NCBI GenBank assembly: GCA_902827205.1
Contig: LR792634.1
Location: 310,001 to 374,000, forward strand
Length of the DNA: 64,000 nt
Source of the DNA: Methanocaldococcus lauensis
Lineage (GTDB): Archaea > AGJL01 > Methanococci > Methanococcales > Methanocaldococcaceae
Reading direction: 5' to 3'
Below, piece after piece: positions 12,070 to 21,817 of this stretch (the stretch's first letter is position 1; every line of letters begins with the position of its first letter). The notes under the pieces were generated by a model that was not told the DNA's origin, searched no databases, and saw only the letters and a list, made by a program, of their open reading frames with translations. A program made the translations under genes and the position numbers.

Positions 12070-12135
12070 CTATTTTTCTCTATATTGGATAGACTCTTCA
12101 ACTTCAAAATCTTTAACTTTAATTTTAACGTTCAT
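12070..12135 (-). pseudogene. Truncated ORF overlapping the end of the DUF3343 gene
   Basis: An ATG at 12135 overlaps the last codons of the DUF3343 gene and opens a 21-codon frame (MNVKIKVKDFEVEESIQY...) that ends in TAG. The same frame continues with ENGLGSYPG before a second stop. The overlapping start suggests a former downstream operon partner that has decayed. I do not recognise the family. Confidence 0.4.
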
Positions 12136-12697
12136 TTTCAATAAACAATTCTCTTGCCTTTTCAAACGCTTTATTTAATGTGTATGCACATAAGGTAAAG
12201 CCCAAACTTTTTGGTGTTTCATCTTCTTTAATATCCTTAATATTTCTTCCTTTTAATTTTAATGCTAAATAAGGAACATCTGGACAACCACCACCAGAAA
12301 TATTTACAATATTCCCCTCTTTATCAATAGTTATTTTCATATTTCCGCATCTAACTAAAATGAATCCATCAACTTCTTTAATTTTTATTAACTCCAATGG
12401 CTTTAAAGAGTAATCATTTAAAGAGATAAATTTTAAAGGTTTTATGTTGTTATTTTCCAATTCTCTTTTAATTCCAAATTCATCAATTAACTCATATTCT
12501 ATTGCCAAATCACATCCTTCTCTAATCTCTACTGGAGGAGCAACCACCTTAATTTTATATCTATCTTTTAAAATACTCTCTGCCTTCATGGCATCCTTTG
12601 TATTTTCAAATATAATTAATCCCTTTCCTTTTAGGCTATCTTTTTCTCTTTCTTTTTCTTTTTTTAATTTAAGAATATTTTTTAATTTTCCTATCAA
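12125..12697 (-). CDS. DUF3343-type protein
   Basis: A 190-residue protein. After a basic leader (1-25), residues about 26-80 (GKGLIIFENTKDAMKAESILKD ... KVVAPPVEIREGCDLAIEY) fit the DUF3343 pattern of small putative sulfur/electron-carrier-related domains. The C-terminal half (SGGGCPDVPYLALKLKG and GFTLCAYTLNKAFEKA) has two conserved-looking cysteines. The start is TTG with GGAGGGAT. It follows the phosphoglycerate mutase gene by 10 bp and is probably co-transcribed with it. Function unknown. Confidence 0.6.
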   Translation of the reverse strand: MIGKLKNILKLKKEKEREKDSLKGKGLIIFENTKDAMKAESILKDRYKIKVVAPPVEIREGCDLAIEYELIDEFGIKRELENNNIKPLKFISLNDYSLKPLELIKIKEVDGFILVRCGNMKITIDKEGNIVNISGGGCPDVPYLALKLKGRNIKDIKEDETPKSLGFTLCAYTLNKAFEKARELFIENER

Positions 12698-14001: not shown

Positions 14002-14832
14002 CTAAATAAACTTTTTTACAATATTCTGATAATTAAAATTCCCTTTGTATCCTTCTTTTAAAATCTCAATTGATGCTGGATATATAAACTCATTTAATAG
14101 CCTTAAAATACTTTCCTTCTCAAAAATTACTTTTCCATCTTTATCTCTATAATTTCCACTAAAAACACATGAAAATTGCTTCTCTCCTTGCTCCCATTCA
14201 TCTCCTATAATTTCTTTAATTTTCTTTCCCTCTTTTATGTATCTTATAGGCAAAATTAGCTCAACATCAAATTCTTTACAAATTTTACTATAAACATCTA
14301 AAACTTCTTCTATTTGGTCGATTTTAAAATCTCCGTTATGATAAACCCTCTCTCCACTGATTATTTTATTTCCTAAATGCTTTGCCAAAGGGATTCTCAA
14401 TATCCTCAAATATGCATGGCATCCAATACATGGGCTGTAATAGTTATATTTTTTTGAAAGTAAAACTGTCCATCTTCCATTTAATGCATGCCAAAGTTTT
14501 GACTCAAACATAAAATGTAATGGCAATAAAACTTTATCTCTATCAATTTCTTTAACTCTTTTATTTGTAATTTCCCAGTTTTTGTAAAAAATGCTTATAT
14601 TTCCATAATCAGTTCCTGTAAATGCAACAACAGGCAAAACGAAATCAATACCTTCATCCATAGCTTTAATTATTGCTGCTACACTATCTCTACCTGAAAA
14701 TTCTCCTATGGCAATATCTTTTAACTTTATACCATTTTCTTCAAGTATTTTAAATGTTTCATCAGATAGCGTTAGCTCTTTAAAAGATTTCTTAAAATCA
14801 ATAAAATTTTTAAGGTTTTGATGAAATAACAT
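14002..14832 (-). CDS. Uncharacterised PP-loop (ATP-pyrophosphatase) protein
   Basis: A 276-residue protein. FSGRDSVAAI at residues 45-54 is a PP-loop signature like SGGxDS, used to adenylate substrates. CIGC at 135-138 and GNKIISGERVYHNG at about 154-167 follow, as in tRNA-thiolation or QueC-like enzymes, where cysteines hold zinc or an Fe-S cluster. The substrate is not recognised. It lies directly upstream of apgM (7 bp) and 29 bp after the TIM-barrel gene, suggesting one transcription unit. Confidence 0.6.
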   Translation of the reverse strand: MLFHQNLKNFIDFKKSFKELTLSDETFKILEENGIKLKDIAIGEFSGRDSVAAIIKAMDEGIDFVLPVVAFTGTDYGNISIFYKNWEITNKRVKEIDRDKVLLPLHFMFESKLWHALNGRWTVLLSKKYNYYSPCIGCHAYLRILRIPLAKHLGNKIISGERVYHNGDFKIDQIEEVLDVYSKICKEFDVELILPIRYIKEGKKIKEIIGDEWEQGEKQFSCVFSGNYRDKDGKVIFEKESILRLLNEFIYPASIEILKEGYKGNFNYQNIVKKFI

Positions 14833-14861
14833 AACTTATCCACCTTATTTAGATTTTGAAT

Positions 14862-15509
14862 TTATTTATAAGTTTCTAAGTATTCCTTTATCATCTTCTC
14901 AGTTCTTAAAATCTCATTAATATCCATTAATTCAATTAAAAACATTTTACATTTAACGTCTAAGAGAGCATCTAATATTGGTTTTAAATTGTTAAGATTT
15001 TTAGGTGGCAGATGTTTTCCATTCATTTCAATCTCATAAACGTGGGAGTTGTAAATTCTATCAGAGCAAATGTCTAAAAATTCTAATCGTTTGTTGTATG
15101 GGATATGTCCAATATCAAATGTTATAAAGCAGTTAATTTCATCTGCTATCTCAGTTATATTGTTTGGATTAGATGAAAAACCTTCTCTTAAATTTTCTAT
15201 GCATAATTTTACATTATTTTTTTGTGCAAATTCATTAACTATTGATAGATTTTCAATTAAAAGTTCTTTATCAATATCTTTATTTTTTCCATTATGTAGG
15301 TGGATTGTTAAATAATCTCTTCCTTTAATATTTTCAATTATATTTTTTAAAATAAAAACACTCTCTTTTTCATCCAAATTTAAAATTGGTGCATGATAGC
15401 CTATAATATTATTTTTTTTAACTATTTTTGGATTATAATGCAAACCCCAATCCACCAATTTATTATTAAAAGTATAACCTTTCTCGAAGCGCATGCAAAT
15501 GCCTATCAT
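14862..15509 (-). CDS. Xylose-isomerase-like TIM-barrel protein
   Basis: A 215-residue protein with the order of strands and metal-type residues seen in the AP-endonuclease-2/sugar isomerase superfamily: HAPILNLD, TIHLHNG, LCIENLREG, ITFDIGHIPYN, NSHVYEIEMNGKHLPP and MFLIELMD. It is short for the family, but His, Glu and Asp positions for a metal site are present (His in HLHNG, Glu in IENL, Asp-x-x-His in FDIGH). ATG with GTGAG. Its role could be sugar-phosphate isomerisation or nucleic-acid repair; context does not decide. Confidence 0.65.
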   Translation of the reverse strand: MIGICMRFEKGYTFNNKLVDWGLHYNPKIVKKNNIIGYHAPILNLDEKESVFILKNIIENIKGRDYLTIHLHNGKNKDIDKELLIENLSIVNEFAQKNNVKLCIENLREGFSSNPNNITEIADEINCFITFDIGHIPYNKRLEFLDICSDRIYNSHVYEIEMNGKHLPPKNLNNLKPILDALLDVKCKMFLIELMDINEILRTEKMIKEYLETYK

Positions 15510-15635: not shown

Positions 15636-16754
15636 TTAAATCATCTCAATAAATGCCTCCAACCTTGTTTTTAACTGCTCTCTATCACTTTCAGAGTAAT
15701 CAGTTTCAATTCTAATAATTGGAATGCCCTCCTCTTTTAATGCCTCTTCTACTTTAGTTTCTTCAATATTGAATGTGTGACAGCACTGTAATGTGTAATA
15801 AACAACCCCATCAACATCCAACTCTTTAACCAATCTTTTTATATTCTCTATTCTCTCATCATTCTTAAATCTACAAGCACAAGGTATTTTGAAGTATCTT
15901 TTTGCTATATCTTCTATACTATAACCTTCAACAAAGTTTTCAAAGAATCTTGTTCCAGTACAGCTTTCTTCACCAACCACAACTCCACCAACTTCTTCAA
16001 TGAGTTCAACAATTTTAGTGTTTCCAGCAACCATAGGACAGCCAGTTATTAGAATCCTCTTACCTTCATAACCTTCTCCTTTCTTAACTCTCTCTTCTAA
16101 CTCTTTAATTAAATCTTCTAAAACTTCTATTGTGTCATCAATATCTAATAAGTAAGCAAATTGGAATATTTTTAAAACATCTAATCCTTTAATTGGGACT
16201 GGTTTATTTTTTCTTAGCTCATAAAGCTTATAGAATAGCTCTCTAAGTTTATTTACTTTATCTATTGCTTCTTTTAATTTCTCCTCAGTTATTTCATTAC
16301 CTGTTTCTTTTTCAACCAACTCTTTTAACTTTTCAACTTCTTTAATCCAGATTTTTAAAGATTCTTCATCTTTCATATGTGGAAGATGCATTATATGCAT
16401 AGGAACAAGCTTTTCCATCAATTCAAACATCTTTTTCTTCCCTTCACAAGTAGTTTCTCCAATAACTATATCTGACGCTTCAAAGTAAGGACATGATTTT
16501 GCCTTCTTAAATCCATAGGATGATTTTATTAATGGACAGAGATTTCTTGGTAAATCCTCCTCTGCTATTGGGATTGTGTCATTTTTACCTCCACATAAAC
16601 CAACAGGAATTGCATTTGCTGCTAAAATTATTTCTATTGGAACATAAGCACAGAACATTCCAAAAACTTTTCTCCCTTCTTCTTTTTGCTTGTAGAGTTG
16701 TTCTTTTCTATTAGAAAATTTTTGCATTAATTTTTCTATTGCCTTTAGTTGCAT
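15636..16754 (-). CDS. Double-cubane-cluster-type reductase (HgdB-like 2-hydroxyacyl-CoA dehydratase family)
   Basis: A 372-residue BcrC/BadD/HgdB-family protein. Many cysteines are spread as in the single-subunit double-cubane cluster proteins: GMFCAYVP (about 33), [12 protein letters not shown] (about 72), KSCPYFE and [10 protein letters not shown] in the first half, then [27 protein letters not shown] and TLQCCHTF in the second. Such proteins receive electrons from an ATP-driven ASKHA activator, homologous to the gene at 19541-20272. No separate HgdA partner is seen, which favours the double-cubane reductase type over a true dehydratase. ATG with GGTGATA. It faces away from the FdhA-like gene across 500 bp. 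Confidence 0.8.
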
Positions 16755-17258
16755 TATATCACCAAATCTAATACCTATTTAGTTATTAGATTTTCTAATA
16801 TATTGTGAATATTTTGCCAAGATTTTTGAAAATTTCATTAAAAAACTATCTTATCAATATTAAAAATTTTACCTTCAATTTTCTTGATACATTAGCAATT
16901 ATTAGAAAATATGATTGTGTAAAATTTATATATATAAATTAATAATGCTAAAATATTAAAATTTATTAACGAGGTTAAGGAGTTTTTGTAGATTAATAAT
17001 ACCCAATTATAATTTTTGTCGGTTTGGTAATACTTTTTAAAATTTTTTATTATTTTAGTAATAATAATTTTAGATAAGTAGTAAATTTTATATACAATAA
17101 CAATATTTGATATTAATATTGGTATGACAATACAATATTCAAAATAAATATTAAAATTAGCATCAAAAAGTTAAAATTAGTAAGATAAAAAGAAAGCTAA
17201 AAATCAAAATTAAACTTAGATACATAATTATTTATTTTTAGAATATTGGGTGGTAATT
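16755..17258. promoter_or_regulatory. 500-bp divergent regulatory region
   Basis: Very AT-rich DNA between the leftward double-cubane gene and the rightward FdhA-like gene. Next to the left gene is the palindromic 27-bp element (16764-16790). A further half-site pair (ATTAGC...ATTAGAA) lies around 16891-16903. TATA-like boxes occur near 16793-16805 for the left gene and in 17080-17100 for the right gene. No ORF or tRNA is visible. Confidence 0.5.
16764..16790. promoter_or_regulatory. Palindromic element AAATCTAAT-N10-TTATTAGA, copy 1
   Basis: An imperfect palindrome (AATCTAATA ... TATTAGATT) starts 10 bp upstream of the double-cubane gene start, between a TATA-like sequence and the ribosome binding site. 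It matches the element at 21908-21934 at 23 of 27 positions with identical spacing. The position downstream of the presumed TATA box suits a repressor. Confidence 0.6.
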
Positions 17259-18392
17259 ATGAAAGTTGTTCATACAATATGCCCAGGTTGTAGTGTTGGA
17301 TGTGGCATTGATTTAATTATCAAAGATAATAAAGTTGTTGGAACTTATCCTAACAAAAGACATCCAATAAATGAAGGAAAGAACTGTTTATATGGACAAA
17401 ACTGTTATAAAATAATATACCATGAAAAGAGATTGGAAAAACCATTAATTAAGAAAAATGGGAAATTTGTTAAAGTTGATTGGGATGAAGCATTAAATTT
17501 TATTGCAGAGAATTTAAAAAAATACAATCCAGAAGATATAACTTTTATAGCTTCTGGAAAATGCACAAATGAAGACAACTATGCGTTAAAAAAATTGGCA
17601 GATATCTTAAAAGCAAAGATTGGGCATTGTATCTGTAACTCTCCAAAGGTTAAGTATACTGAGGTTTCTACAAGCATTGATGATATTGAAAATGCAAAAC
17701 ACATTATAATTATTGGCGATGTTTTTGGGCAACATGCATTGATTGGAAGAAAAGTTATTAAAGCAAAGGAAAAAGGGGCTAAAGTAACAATTTTCAATAT
17801 AGAGGAAAAGGAAATCTTAAAATTAAATGCTGATGAGTTTGTAAAGGTTGATGATTATTCAAATATTAGTTTGGGCAATATTGATAAAGATACAATGATT
17901 ATAATCAACGCTCCAATAAATGCTGATGAAATAATTAAAAATGCAAAGAAAAATAAATCCAAAGTTCTACCAATAGCAAAACACTGCAATACAGTTGGAG
18001 CAACACTTATTGGCATACCTGCTCTAAATAAATATGAATATCTTGAATTATTAAAAAATTCAAAGTGCTTATACATAATGGGAGAAAACCCAGCTTTAGT
18101 AGATAAAGATTCATTAAAAAATGCTGAGTTTTTGGTAGTTCAGGATATTATAATGAGTGAAACCGCAGAACTTGCTGATGTTGTTCTTCCATCTTCATGC
18201 TGGGCAGAGAAAAAGGGGACGTTTACAAATACAGATAAAAGAATTCAAAAAATAAATAAGGCAGTGAATCCACCAGGGGAAGCTATGGATGATTGGATGA
18301 TAATTAAAAAATTGGCAGAAAAACTTGAAATTGATTTGGGATTTGAATCATTAGAAAATATTCAACAGGATTTTATTAAGGTGATATTATGA
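17259..18392 (+). CDS. Short FdhA-like molybdopterin oxidoreductase
   Basis: A 377-residue protein of the molybdopterin oxidoreductase family. An N-terminal 4Fe-4S motif C-x2-C-x3-C (CPGCSVGC) is followed by [16 protein letters not shown] aligns with the FDH active-site segment CHSPTV, placing a cysteine where FdhA has Cys or Sec. [20 protein letters not shown] and TNTDKRIQ match FdhA. It lacks the C-terminal MGD-binding domain and is about 300 residues shorter than normal FdhA. The ATG at 17259 follows GGGTGGT. Its stop overlaps the next start by ATGA. The substrate may not be formate. Confidence 0.75.
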
Positions 18393-19528
18393 AATATGCA
18401 TTAATCCAAGCTACGGATAAAGAGATTTTAAAGAAAGCAGAATGTGGTGGAGCAGTAACTGCATTATTCAAATACTTATTAGATAACAAGCTTGTTGATG
18501 GAGTTTTAGCTTTAAAGAGAGGAGAAGATATTTACGATGGAATTCCAGCATTTATAACAAATTCTAATGAATTGATAGAAACTGCTGGCTCTTTGCACTG
18601 TGCACCAACAAATTTTGGAAAGATAATTAGCAAATATTTGAATGATAAAAAAATCGCTGTCTCTACTAAACCATGTGATGCGATGGCGATTAAAGAGTTA
18701 GCAAAGTTAAACCAGGTAAATTTAGATAACATCTATATGATTGGTTTGAATTGTGGAGGGACAATAAGTCCAATAACTGCCATGAAAATGATTGAGCTAT
18801 TTTATGAAGTTAATCCATTAGATGTTGTTAAAGAAGAAATAGATAAGGGGAAGTTTATTATTGAATTAAAAAATGGAGAACATAAGGCTATCAAAATAGA
18901 TGAGTTGGAAGAAAAAGGTTTTGGTAGAAGAAAGAACTGCCAAAGATGTGAATTAAAAATTCCAAGAATGGCTGATTTAGCTTGTGGAAATTGGGGAGCT
19001 GAAAAGGGCTGGACGTTTGTTGAAATCTGTTCAGAAAAAGGAAAAAAATTAGTTGAGGATGCTGAAAAAGAAGGCTATATCAAAATTAAAGAACCTTCAG
19101 AAAAGGCAATTCAAATTAGAGAGAAAATAGAGAATGTTATGATAAAGTTGGCTAAAAAATTCCAAAAAATACATTTGGAAGATGAATATCCAAACCTTAA
19201 AGAGTGGCAGAAATATTGGAATAGATGTATAAAGTGTTATGGTTGTAGAGATAACTGCCCACTCTGCTTCTGTGTTGAATGTAGATTAGAGAAAGATTAT
19301 ATTGATGAAAAAGGAAAAATCCCGCCAAATCCTTTAATTTTCCAGGGGATTAGATTGAACCATATATCTCAAAGCTGTATAAACTGTGGGCAGTGTGAAG
19401 ATGCTTGCCCAATGGATATCCCTTTAGCTTATATATTCCACAGAATGCAGCTGAAGATTAGAGATACCTTTGGTTATGTTCCAGGTGTTGATGATAGCTT
19501 GCCACCACTATTCTTAAGTGAAAAATAA
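18389..19528 (+). CDS. FdhB/FrhB-like F420-binding iron-sulfur protein
   Basis: A 379-residue F420-dehydrogenase beta-family protein. The N-terminal part ([21 protein letters not shown]) and the [13 protein letters not shown] and GLNCGG segments are the FAD/F420 domain. [21 protein letters not shown] is typical of FdhB/FrhB. A C-terminal extension has two cysteine clusters ([14 protein letters not shown] and [12 protein letters not shown]) for ferredoxin-type clusters. It probably passes electrons between F420 and the FdhA-like partner, with which it overlaps by 4 bp. Convergent with the activator gene. Confidence 0.85.
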
Positions 19529-19540
19529 TAATAATTAAAT

Positions 19541-20272
19541 TTATACTAATATGGCTCCAACACAGCAAACAATCTGCGGTTCTTCTGGAATTAAAAGCTT
19601 TTTATTTAACTTTTTTTCAAACATATCAACTAAAACTTTATTTTTAGCGACTCCACCACTAAATACTATATTTTGTATTTTAAGCTTGTTTATCATTGGA
19701 ATAACTCTATTTATTATACTATCATAAACTCCCATTAAAATCTCTTCTTTTGGAATTTTTTTAGACAGTAAGCTTATTATTTCACTTTCAGCAAAAACTG
19801 CACACATTGATGATATTTTGGCAACATTATCTGATTTATATTTATTTACTTCATTTTTATTAATTTTTAAAATATCTAAAGATTTTTCTAAGAATTTTCC
19901 AGTTCCAGCAGCACATTTATCTGATAGGATGAAATCAATAACTTTTCCCTCTTTATTAATTTTTAAAACCTTTGTATCCTGTCCTCCAATATCTACAACT
20001 CCATCCGCATCATTAAAGAAATAATTAGCTCCCTTTCCTAAAGCAATAACTTCTGGAACTACTTTATCTGCAAAACTAATCTTATGCCTTCCATATCCTG
20101 TTGCTATAATTTTATCTATTGAATATTTTTTCTCAATCTCTTTAACCATTTTTAATAAAATATCCTCTTCAATAACAACTCCAATATCTTCAACTTTATA
20201 CCAAACTATTCTGTTATTTTCCATTAGAACCATTTTTGTAGTTGTGGAGCCAACATCTATTCCCAAAATCAT
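19541..20272 (-). CDS. ASKHA-family activator ATPase (HgdC-like)
   Basis: A 243-residue member of the 2-hydroxyglutaryl-CoA dehydratase activator family. The phosphate-1 motif GIDVGSTTTKMV is at the N-terminus, DGVVDIGGQDTKV at about 90-102, and the two cysteines that hold the dimer-bridging 4Fe-4S cluster are in DKCAAGTGKF and SSMCAVFAESE. Known activators hydrolyse ATP to push one electron at very low potential into an HgdB-type protein; the partner here is presumably the gene at 15636-16754. It overlaps the upstream DUF523-like gene by 4 bp and ends the leftward transporter operon. Confidence 0.88.
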   Translation of the reverse strand: MILGIDVGSTTTKMVLMENNRIVWYKVEDIGVVIEEDILLKMVKEIEKKYSIDKIIATGYGRHKISFADKVVPEVIALGKGANYFFNDADGVVDIGGQDTKVLKINKEGKVIDFILSDKCAAGTGKFLEKSLDILKINKNEVNKYKSDNVAKISSMCAVFAESEIISLLSKKIPKEEILMGVYDSIINRVIPMINKLKIQNIVFSGGVAKNKVLVDMFEKKLNKKLLIPEEPQIVCCVGAILV

Positions 20273-20736
20273 TCTATCATCTTCTTTAAATTTTTTATAA
20301 ATTCTTCATAATCTTCTTCATTTTTTGGATATGCAATTATCTTAATGTTGATATTTAAATTATCAATCTCCTTTAAAAGTTCTTCCATTAAGATTCCTCT
20401 ATTTTTAATATCACATGTTGGAGAGTTTTCTATTCCAATTAAAATAAATTTGAAGTCATCTTTTATATATTCTTGCAGATATTTAACTATTGGCTTTAAA
20501 AGTTCTCTGCATAGTTTTCTATATTCTTTTGAGTCATATTCCTCTTTTGTTTTTCCTACTCTCTCATATCCTAAATAAATTATCTCTGGACAAGGTAATT
20601 GGATTATGGCATAATTATTCTTTAAAAGAATTTCAACAACCTCATTAAAAGCTCCTTCAGCTCTCTCCAAACCATTAACAACACTATTTTGATTTAATAT
20701 ACAATGAGAAACAATAGCTATCTTTTTTCCTTTCAT
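20269..20736 (-). CDS. DUF523/TudS-like small cysteine protein
   Basis: A 155-residue protein beginning KIAIVSHCILNQNSVV, with later cysteines in QLPCPEIIYLG and ENSPTCDIKNRG. The three separated cysteines and the fold pattern resemble the DUF523 family, some members of which hold a 4Fe-4S cluster and remove sulfur from 2-thiouracil. The match is partial, so desulfidase activity is only a suggestion. ATG after GTGAGAGT. It lies 31 bp after the YeeE gene and overlaps the activator gene by 4 bp. Confidence 0.55.
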   Translation of the reverse strand: MKGKKIAIVSHCILNQNSVVNGLERAEGAFNEVVEILLKNNYAIIQLPCPEIIYLGYERVGKTKEEYDSKEYRKLCRELLKPIVKYLQEYIKDDFKFILIGIENSPTCDIKNRGILMEELLKEIDNLNINIKIIAYPKNEEDYEEFIKNLKKMIE

Positions 20737-20767
20737 ACTCTCACAAAATAAAAAGAGATTTAAATTT

Positions 20768-21241
20768 TTAAATTAATATTGCCTTTACTAATGGAGCTAC
20801 AAACTTGTGGAATATAACTGCTCCAACAGCTAATCCAATTAAATAGGCAATAGCTGTTTTATTCCCTTCAGCAGCCATAACGTAGTTTCTTAATGGGCAA
20901 CCTCCTTGAATAACTGAGAAAAATCCTACTCCAAATCCACCAATAATAGCCACTATTAAATGCCCCATTAAAGTTCTACTTGCGCCCAATGGGTCTCCTG
21001 GTATTGGGGATAATCCCTTATCAACAAACCATGGAAATGCTGAAATTAATCCAGCAGCACTAAATATGATATATCCAATTAGTGCTCCAGCAAAGAACCC
21101 AAATAAACCTTTGATTAACCATGTATCTTTTATTAAATAGAAATCTCTCATTCCTCCAACAAAACACATTCTTGCTCTCTGGAATAAATAACCTAAAATT
21201 ATTCCAAATACAAATGTTCCAATTATGTGGAGATATTCCAT
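20768..21241 (-). CDS. YeeE/YedE-family transporter half, gene 1
   Basis: A 157-residue membrane protein with about four to five helices. QRARMCFVGGMRD and QGGCPLRNYVMAAEG carry the conserved cysteines of the YeeE/YedE (sulfur transport) family, proposed to relay thiosulfate or related sulfur/selenium species across the membrane by cysteine contacts. Full-length family proteins are about 350 residues; here the work seems divided between this gene and the one at 21359-21817. ATG with GGTGG. Confidence 0.8.
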   Translation of the reverse strand: MEYLHIIGTFVFGIILGYLFQRARMCFVGGMRDFYLIKDTWLIKGLFGFFAGALIGYIIFSAAGLISAFPWFVDKGLSPIPGDPLGASRTLMGHLIVAIIGGFGVGFFSVIQGGCPLRNYVMAAEGNKTAIAYLIGLAVGAVIFHKFVAPLVKAILI

Positions 21242-21265
21242 AAAACCACCTTAAGTAGTTTTTAT

Positions 21266-21360
21266 AACAGAATTTTTGCAGATTAGATATTTATATTGGA
21301 ACTTTGATGCCAAAGGCATCTTTATTCAATAGAAAATTTAATTTCTGAAAAAATTCTGTT
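21266..21360. repeat. Long inverted repeat between the two YeeE genes
   Basis: A 17-bp arm AACAGAATTTTTGCAGA (21266-21282) is matched by TCTGAAAAAATTCTGTT (21344-21360), an inverted copy with one mismatch. Between the arms sits a smaller hairpin GATGCC-AAA-GGCATC (21306-21320). It fills the gap between the genes and reaches into the stop codon of the upstream one. It could be an RNA structure that tunes the downstream gene, or a tiny non-autonomous transposon. Confidence 0.6.
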
Positions 21361-21817
21361 AGAGGTTTCTTTTTAAATAAACTTCACTTGCTACAACCAC
21401 TCCAGCAAACATAGCTATTAAACTAATCAACGCTATAATATCTCCATAAGCAGTTCTTAAAGTCTCTCTAACAGGACAACCTCCCATTAATAGGGCAAAA
21501 TTAATAACCAAAATACCTAAAATAAAACCAATAGCTGGATTGTGTGTTTGTTTTATTTTAAACTCTTTATGAATAAATGCGGCTATTAAAGCCCCAATAA
21601 AGATACCTACAACAGTTAAAACAGGAAAAACTTTTGATACAGGAGCTAAACCTAATGAAGTTCCAAATAAGTGATTGACAATCCAATTTACTAAATCTCT
21701 TGTGTGACATGCTATACAGATACCATAAGCTGGTGGAGGGAACACTTTAAACAATGCCTGCAACATTGCTGCTGTAAAACCTCCTATCAACCCTGCTGTT
21801 AATGGGGAAATTCTCAT
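21359..21817 (-). CDS. YeeE/YedE-family transporter half, gene 2
   Basis: A 152-residue membrane protein. AYGICIACHTRDLVNW and MGGCPVRETLRTAYGD hold the family cysteines; about four to five hydrophobic helices are visible. It looks like the complementary half of the split YeeE/YedE transporter. It heads the leftward operon followed by gene 1, the DUF523-like gene and the activator. A GGTGAGG ribosome binding site precedes the ATG. Confidence 0.8.
   Translation of the reverse strand: MRISPLTAGLIGGFTAAMLQALFKVFPPPAYGICIACHTRDLVNWIVNHLFGTSLGLAPVSKVFPVLTVVGIFIGALIAAFIHKEFKIKQTHNPAIGFILGILVINFALLMGGCPVRETLRTAYGDIIALISLIAMFAGVVVASEVYLKRNL

Follow-up and report, generated by a model that had tools for sequence, protein, structure and literature searches.

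A split YedE-type transporter, a TudS-family protein and a double-cubane protein form a recurring gene set with a putative role in chalcogen acquisition in Methanococcales

A 64,000-nt stretch of Methanocaldococcus lauensis DNA (contig LR792634.1, positions 310,001 to 374,000; hereafter the window), from a 1.48-Mb genome of the order Methanococcales, carries at positions 15636-21817 an island of seven genes that comprises two modules: a split YedE-type transporter, the putative importer (module 1), and a double-cubane cluster protein (DCCP) with its activator (module 2), bridged by a putative TudS-family desulfidase. We tentatively propose that the island is a chalcogen (most likely selenium) acquisition module coupled to an ATP-driven low-potential reductase, the chemistry of which is predicted. 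The gene set itself is real, recurring and partly mobile, and adds a new archaeal form to a selenium-linked association already known from bacteria. All seven genes were intact, with open reading frames (ORFs) at the coordinates given below, and all were under purifying selection when compared with three relatives (ratio of nonsynonymous to synonymous substitution rates, dN/dS, 0.02-0.31). The gene families named in a preliminary description of the window were borne out by profile scores, and only its short molybdopterin protein had to be reinterpreted.

The central gene of module 2 encodes the HgdB-type DCCP (15636-16754, minus strand; 372 amino acids, aa). It scored 506 bits against the family model NF040772 (cut-off 350) and matched the sequence of PDB entry 6ENO with a phmmer E-value of 6.9e-105. 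Eight cysteines (Cys 35, 54, 73, 88, 103, 265, 292 and 325) aligned with cysteines of 6ENO and were invariant in 11 archaeal sequences. No second HGD-D subunit was found in the genome, where this gene gave the sole HGD-D match, in agreement with the earlier suggestion of a double-cubane protein that has no HgdA partner but its own ASKHA activator. That activator (19541-20272, minus strand; 243 aa), an ASKHA ATPase of the DCCP reductase type, scored 344 bits against TIGR00241 (acyl-CoA dehydratase activase; cut-off 125). Presence and absence were scored across 36 Methanococcales genomes, and the Fisher p-value given below ignores phylogeny. Both proteins occurred in 27 genomes, the activator alone in one and neither in eight; the 28 genomes with an activator orthologue thus included all 27 with DCCP. 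The pair resembles the DCCP and DCCP reductase of Carboxydothermus hydrogenoformans (6ENO, 7YYL) in its single-subunit HGD-D protein, eight matching cysteines and ASKHA activator, but differs in standing beside TudS, a split YedE, a Se/S carrier and F420-linked formate dehydrogenase-like genes. The physiological role and substrate of DCCP have been reported as unclear (PMC11971306).

The bridging gene (20269-20736, minus strand) belongs to the CD3072 subfamily of TudS-related putative desulfidases, as shown by a score of 167 bits against NF045597 (cut-off 130); the match to the Pfam family DUF523/2-thiouracil desulfurase reached only E = 0.012. Residues C12, C49, C108, E51 and S105 were invariant in the alignment and correspond to TudS residues (PMC10611767), and T107 stands at the position of the second catalytic serine. 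With cluster and catalytic residues kept, the protein is, as described before, a DUF523/TudS-like cysteine protein. It shares with the 4-thio-uridine monophosphate (4-thio-UMP) desulfidase TudS (PMC10611767) the three cluster cysteines and the catalytic Glu and Ser positions, but has Val19 where TudS has its phosphate-binding Arg17. This replacement suggests that the substrate probably differs from that of TudS and that 4-thio-UMP is an unlikely one. A profile search against the PDB returned no significant match for the protein. Orthologues were found in 12 of the 36 genomes, all 12 of them DCCP-positive, and lay next to the activator gene in ten.

Module 1 is encoded by YedN (21359-21817, minus strand) and YedC (20768-21241, minus strand), the N- and C-terminal halves of a YedE/YeeE-type transporter (PF04143). 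They fit separate parts of the selenium-linked model TIGR04112 (seleno_YedE; cut-off 200), YedN at positions 4-131 (71 bits) and YedC at positions 185-309 (75.9 bits), and are thus complementary, as had been suggested. TIGR04112 was the best-scoring model for the halves. Split archaeal YedE that co-occurs with SelD has already been described by Lin et al. 2015 (PMC5322559). The window also encodes, apart from the island, a Se/S carrier-like protein with an archaeal C-terminal domain (12125-12697, minus strand), which matched PF11823 (formerly DUF3343) with E = 1.8e-17 and 63 bits against a cut-off of 25. YedE and this carrier occurred in an identical set of genomes (23/36; Fisher p = 4e-10, not corrected for phylogeny). 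A ribokinase-like gene with a weak PF01256 match, located outside the window (G000:C1:533820-534623, L202), was present in 22 of these 23 genomes, the single exception being an incomplete genome, and was missing from all of the remaining 13. A second locus of this kinase-like gene was seen at L028:14325-15164. In other genera the carrier gene immediately followed YedN-YedC, and the tight order YedN-YedC-carrier-kinase was found there and in several Methanocaldococcus. The obligate partners of the importer are the carrier, which the preliminary description had missed, and the kinase-like gene, not the reductase.

Conservation of the gene set beyond chance, named beforehand as the test of the island, was evident in several clustered arrangements and in a 3.7-kb block shared between genera. 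In two genomes of different genera (G002 of g1 and G023 of g3), the genes activator-TudS-DCCP-YedN-YedC-carrier lie on a single strand. The five-gene block from activator to YedC was 94.2% identical between them at the nucleotide level over 3,712 bp. For the carrier gene identity was 91% over 500 bp, while their GltB-like housekeeping genes reached only 76% in DNA and 85% in protein. The comparison suggests that the cassette was exchanged laterally between genera as a single unit.

Related associations were found in bacteria, where we examined a pattern-based sample of 79 CD3072 TudS loci outside Methanococcales. An importer gene lay at most three ORFs from TudS in 52 of 76 neighbourhoods outside the order. 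A Halanaerobium locus (L126) contains, according to family models, an energy-coupling factor (ECF) S component followed by TudS, C_GCAxxG, SLAC1, DUF169, DCCP, activator and PF11823 genes, with everything from TudS onwards held in 5.5 kb. In Orenia (L092) and Herbinix (L135), TudS lies in operons with SelD (386 and 398 bits), YedF, an enzyme resembling selenocysteine (Sec) lyase and a PF11823-type carrier. Strict conservation of TudS, DCCP and YedE together was considered and rejected, most bacterial CD3072 loci being without DCCP. Published work has placed DCCP in bacterial selenium clusters (PMC10418091). With the YedE/SelD sets (PMC5322559) and the type I mlp clusters (PMC10418091), the archaeal loci have in common the split archaeal YedE and the PF11823 carrier, and also the presence, in bacterial selenium neighbourhoods, of activase and 2-hydroxyglutaryl-CoA dehydratase genes or DCCP. 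Unlike the bacterial selenium sets, however, the archaeal loci show no YedF or Sec lyase gene and add CD3072 TudS, a degenerate formate dehydrogenase pair (FdhAs-FdhB) and the kinase-like partner. Among side observations, another Halanaerobium TudS locus (L117:12044-17281) also encodes a URO-D methyltransferase and a corrinoid protein, a set that recalls the methyl-selenide system SdmABC, which is induced by selenium depletion in M. maripaludis (PMC11097638). Genes judged by eye to resemble SatP/YaaH-type acetate transporters (L061:7622-8236 and L109:9273-9887) separated activator from DCCP in one Methanococcus-type genome and immediately preceded TudS in Tissierella.

In the mechanism that we propose, the two YedE halves would assemble into a single importer that takes up a small compound of selenium (or sulfur), and the TudS-family enzyme would bind the chalcogen at the free iron of its [4Fe-4S] cluster. 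The Se/S carrier and the kinase-like partner would then pass it on towards selenophosphate synthesis. The activator would use ATP to drive electrons onto the double-cubane cluster, which would carry out or support a difficult reductive step, and these electrons may derive from F420H2, entering through FdhB and then through FdhAs as an iron-sulfur adaptor. In this scheme the substrate, the chemistry, the direction of transport, the route of the electrons and the preference for selenium over sulfur are predicted, whereas gene identities, retained or lost residues, co-occurrence, joint transfer, recurrence in bacteria and joint decay were observed. A more specific and doubtful version holds that activator, DCCP and TudS together constitute an ATP-driven reductive deselenase (or desulfurase), which would strip selenium from an imported organic compound, for example a seleno- or thio-carbonyl, with electrons from F420H2 via FdhAs. 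If true, this would give the free-standing DCCP its first physiological role and reveal a dedicated selenium-acquisition route.

Several observations weigh against the proposed selenium-linked, coupled function. Read jointly, YedN and YedC scored 138 bits against TIGR04112, below its cut-off of 200. The predicted structure of the TudS homologue (mean predicted local distance difference test score, pLDDT, 84.8) gave no Foldseek match at E<=0.001 when the 6Z96 fold was sought. SelD-family matches were present in all 36 genomes (33 over cut-off), irrespective of YedE; SelD was therefore rejected as a discriminator within Methanococcales, and distribution within the order does not tell selenium from sulfur. 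M. maripaludis lacking yedE showed no clear selenium phenotype (PMC11097638). DCCP lay within 10 kb of TudS in only 3 of the 79 CD3072 loci outside the order. Within it, six genomes have DCCP without YedE and two have YedE without DCCP, and in one Methanocaldococcus genome (G008) DCCP, activator, FdhAs and FdhB are all intact despite the loss of module 1. There only a remnant of YedN is left, YedC is shortened and has a stop, TudS lacks Cys12, the end of the carrier is shifted and the kinase-like gene is frameshifted. The decay of module 1 and TudS beside an intact module 2 shows that the modules are separable. We take G008, from its gene order, to be M. jannaschii; if so, that species would be a poor model here, with importer, desulfidase, carrier end and kinase all broken.

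This separability in both directions is what would be expected if the island held two unrelated functions, with DCCP and its activator serving as a general low-potential reductase, perhaps acting on some other small molecule, that hitch-hikes beside a Se/S module. The distance of more than 500 kb between module 1 and DCCP in Methanococcus-type genomes and the one-sided decay in G008 also fit this explanation. Against it stand the orthologous TudS, which was never found without DCCP in Methanococcales, the transfer of the block between genera, the clustering of the same four families in Halanaerobium and the independent report of DCCP in bacterial selenium clusters (PMC10418091). We consider it rather less than probable. 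The preliminary description had envisaged an imported sulfur- or selenium-containing compound and one joint pathway; the link to chalcogen import stands, while a single joint pathway is unproven given that the modules are separable.

The same machinery might instead import and strip a sulfur compound, organic or inorganic (thiosulfate or a thione), with selenium incidental. The YedE/YeeE relatives TsuA and SoxT transport sulfur compounds (PMC11582611), the CD3072 family is named a putative desulfidase by NCBI, bacterial CD3072 loci mostly adjoin importers without selenium genes, and PF11823 itself bears the name Se/S carrier. We nevertheless favour selenium and regard the sulfur version as unlikely, on three grounds only: because the YedE halves fit TIGR04112 (76 and 71 bits) better than any TsuA model (at most 42 and 24 bits), because the yedE transcript of M. 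maripaludis rises by 5.3 log2 under selenium depletion (PMC11097638), and because TudS lies in the selD operons of two bacteria.

The input of electrons was previously ascribed to reduced F420 or formate. FdhAs (17250-18392, plus strand; 380 aa) has Molybdopterin and Fe4S4 domains, and its ORF overlaps by 4 bp that of FdhB (18389-19528, plus strand), an FdhB/FrhB-type F420-oxidising subunit with ferredoxin-type clusters (PF04432/PF04422). The earlier picture of a short molybdopterin protein overlapping an F420-type FdhB thus holds for domains and gene overlap, but the protein is now recognised as a degenerate paralogue of the formate dehydrogenase alpha subunit, scoring 272 bits against TIGR01591 where 666 are required. 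Aligned with the full Sec-FdhA of the same genome, FdhAs retains the N-terminal four-cysteine [4Fe-4S] motif but has lost the Sec-His pair (LUHSA to ICNSP), the substrate arginine (PLRGQNN to PIAKHCN) and the entire C-terminal cofactor-binding domain. The Sec/Cys-His pair, arginine and cofactor domain were lost in all 11 short FdhAs sequences aligned. A formate dehydrogenase function was rejected on the loss of the catalytic residues, and a pseudogene was likewise rejected, since 11 of 13 copies have no internal stops and dN/dS is 0.09-0.16. FdhAs was found in 13 of the 36 genomes, all DCCP-positive, was mostly followed by FdhB, and lay near activator or DCCP in eight. We infer that FdhAs is probably a non-catalytic iron-sulfur adaptor that passes on electrons from F420H2. 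An electron adaptor in which an F420 subunit is joined by a conserved but "dead" subunit of formate dehydrogenase would be unusual.

The F420-type input stands, but formate is an unlikely donor given that FdhAs has neither catalytic residues nor a cofactor domain. A small formate dehydrogenase feeding the reductase is accordingly very improbable, even though FdhB resembles the partner of full Sec-FdhA enzymes and by itself could still serve Sec-FdhA. FdhB is the only close copy of its kind in the genome, with a single match at E<=1e-60, and the Sec-FdhA encoded elsewhere has no adjoining FdhB, so that this FdhB may serve both alpha subunits. The pair resembles the FdhAB formate dehydrogenase of Methanococcales in gene order and FdhB, but its alpha subunit is truncated. 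The synonymous divergence (dS) of FdhAs from a genome of the same species was 0.66, compared with 0.05-0.17 for neighbouring genes, and one FdhAs copy has probably been replaced by recombination. In another genome (G006, L162:4057-8262), a full Sec-FdhA-FdhB pair adjoins YedN-YedC, although more than 300 kb separate this locus from FdhAs, which is found next to DCCP. Finally, an ordinary 2-hydroxyacyl-CoA dehydratase at 15636-16754 was rejected as extremely unlikely, because its distant similarity to HadC (129 bits) falls far below the cut-off of 700 while the protein is well above that for DCCP, all DCCP cysteines are retained and the genome holds no other HGD-D match.

The activator and TudS genes overlap by 4 bp and TudS and YedC are 31 bp apart, which makes the proposed single operon of activator, TudS and YedE genes plausible, but it is unproven, with 117 bp separating YedN from YedC. 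This gap (21242-21358) contains an approximately 100-bp dispersed element resembling a miniature inverted-repeat transposable element, in which terminal inverted repeats and, at the centre, a GATGCC...GGCATC hairpin were recognised by eye. Copies numbered 18 in G012, where one occupies the same site in the opposite orientation, eight in G008, five in G001 and one in the window genome; the same-species genome G031 has none, including at this site. The element plays no part in the function of the island. A scan for sigma-70 promoters, a model not suited to archaea, gave matches at chance level. Next to DCCP, positions 14002-15509 encode a 276-aa protein with a PP-loop-like motif and no Pfam or NCBIfam match, alongside a CbiR-like TIM-barrel protein. 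The two genes are conserved downstream of DCCP with apgM across much of Methanocaldococcus, and appear degraded together in G006.

In prokaryotes, a specific system for selenium uptake at high affinity has yet to be identified (PMC13188914). The six-gene archaeal cassette, mobile between genera, is a compact, expressible unit that bears both on selenium uptake and on the substrate of DCCP, and it gives this enzyme family a testable role.

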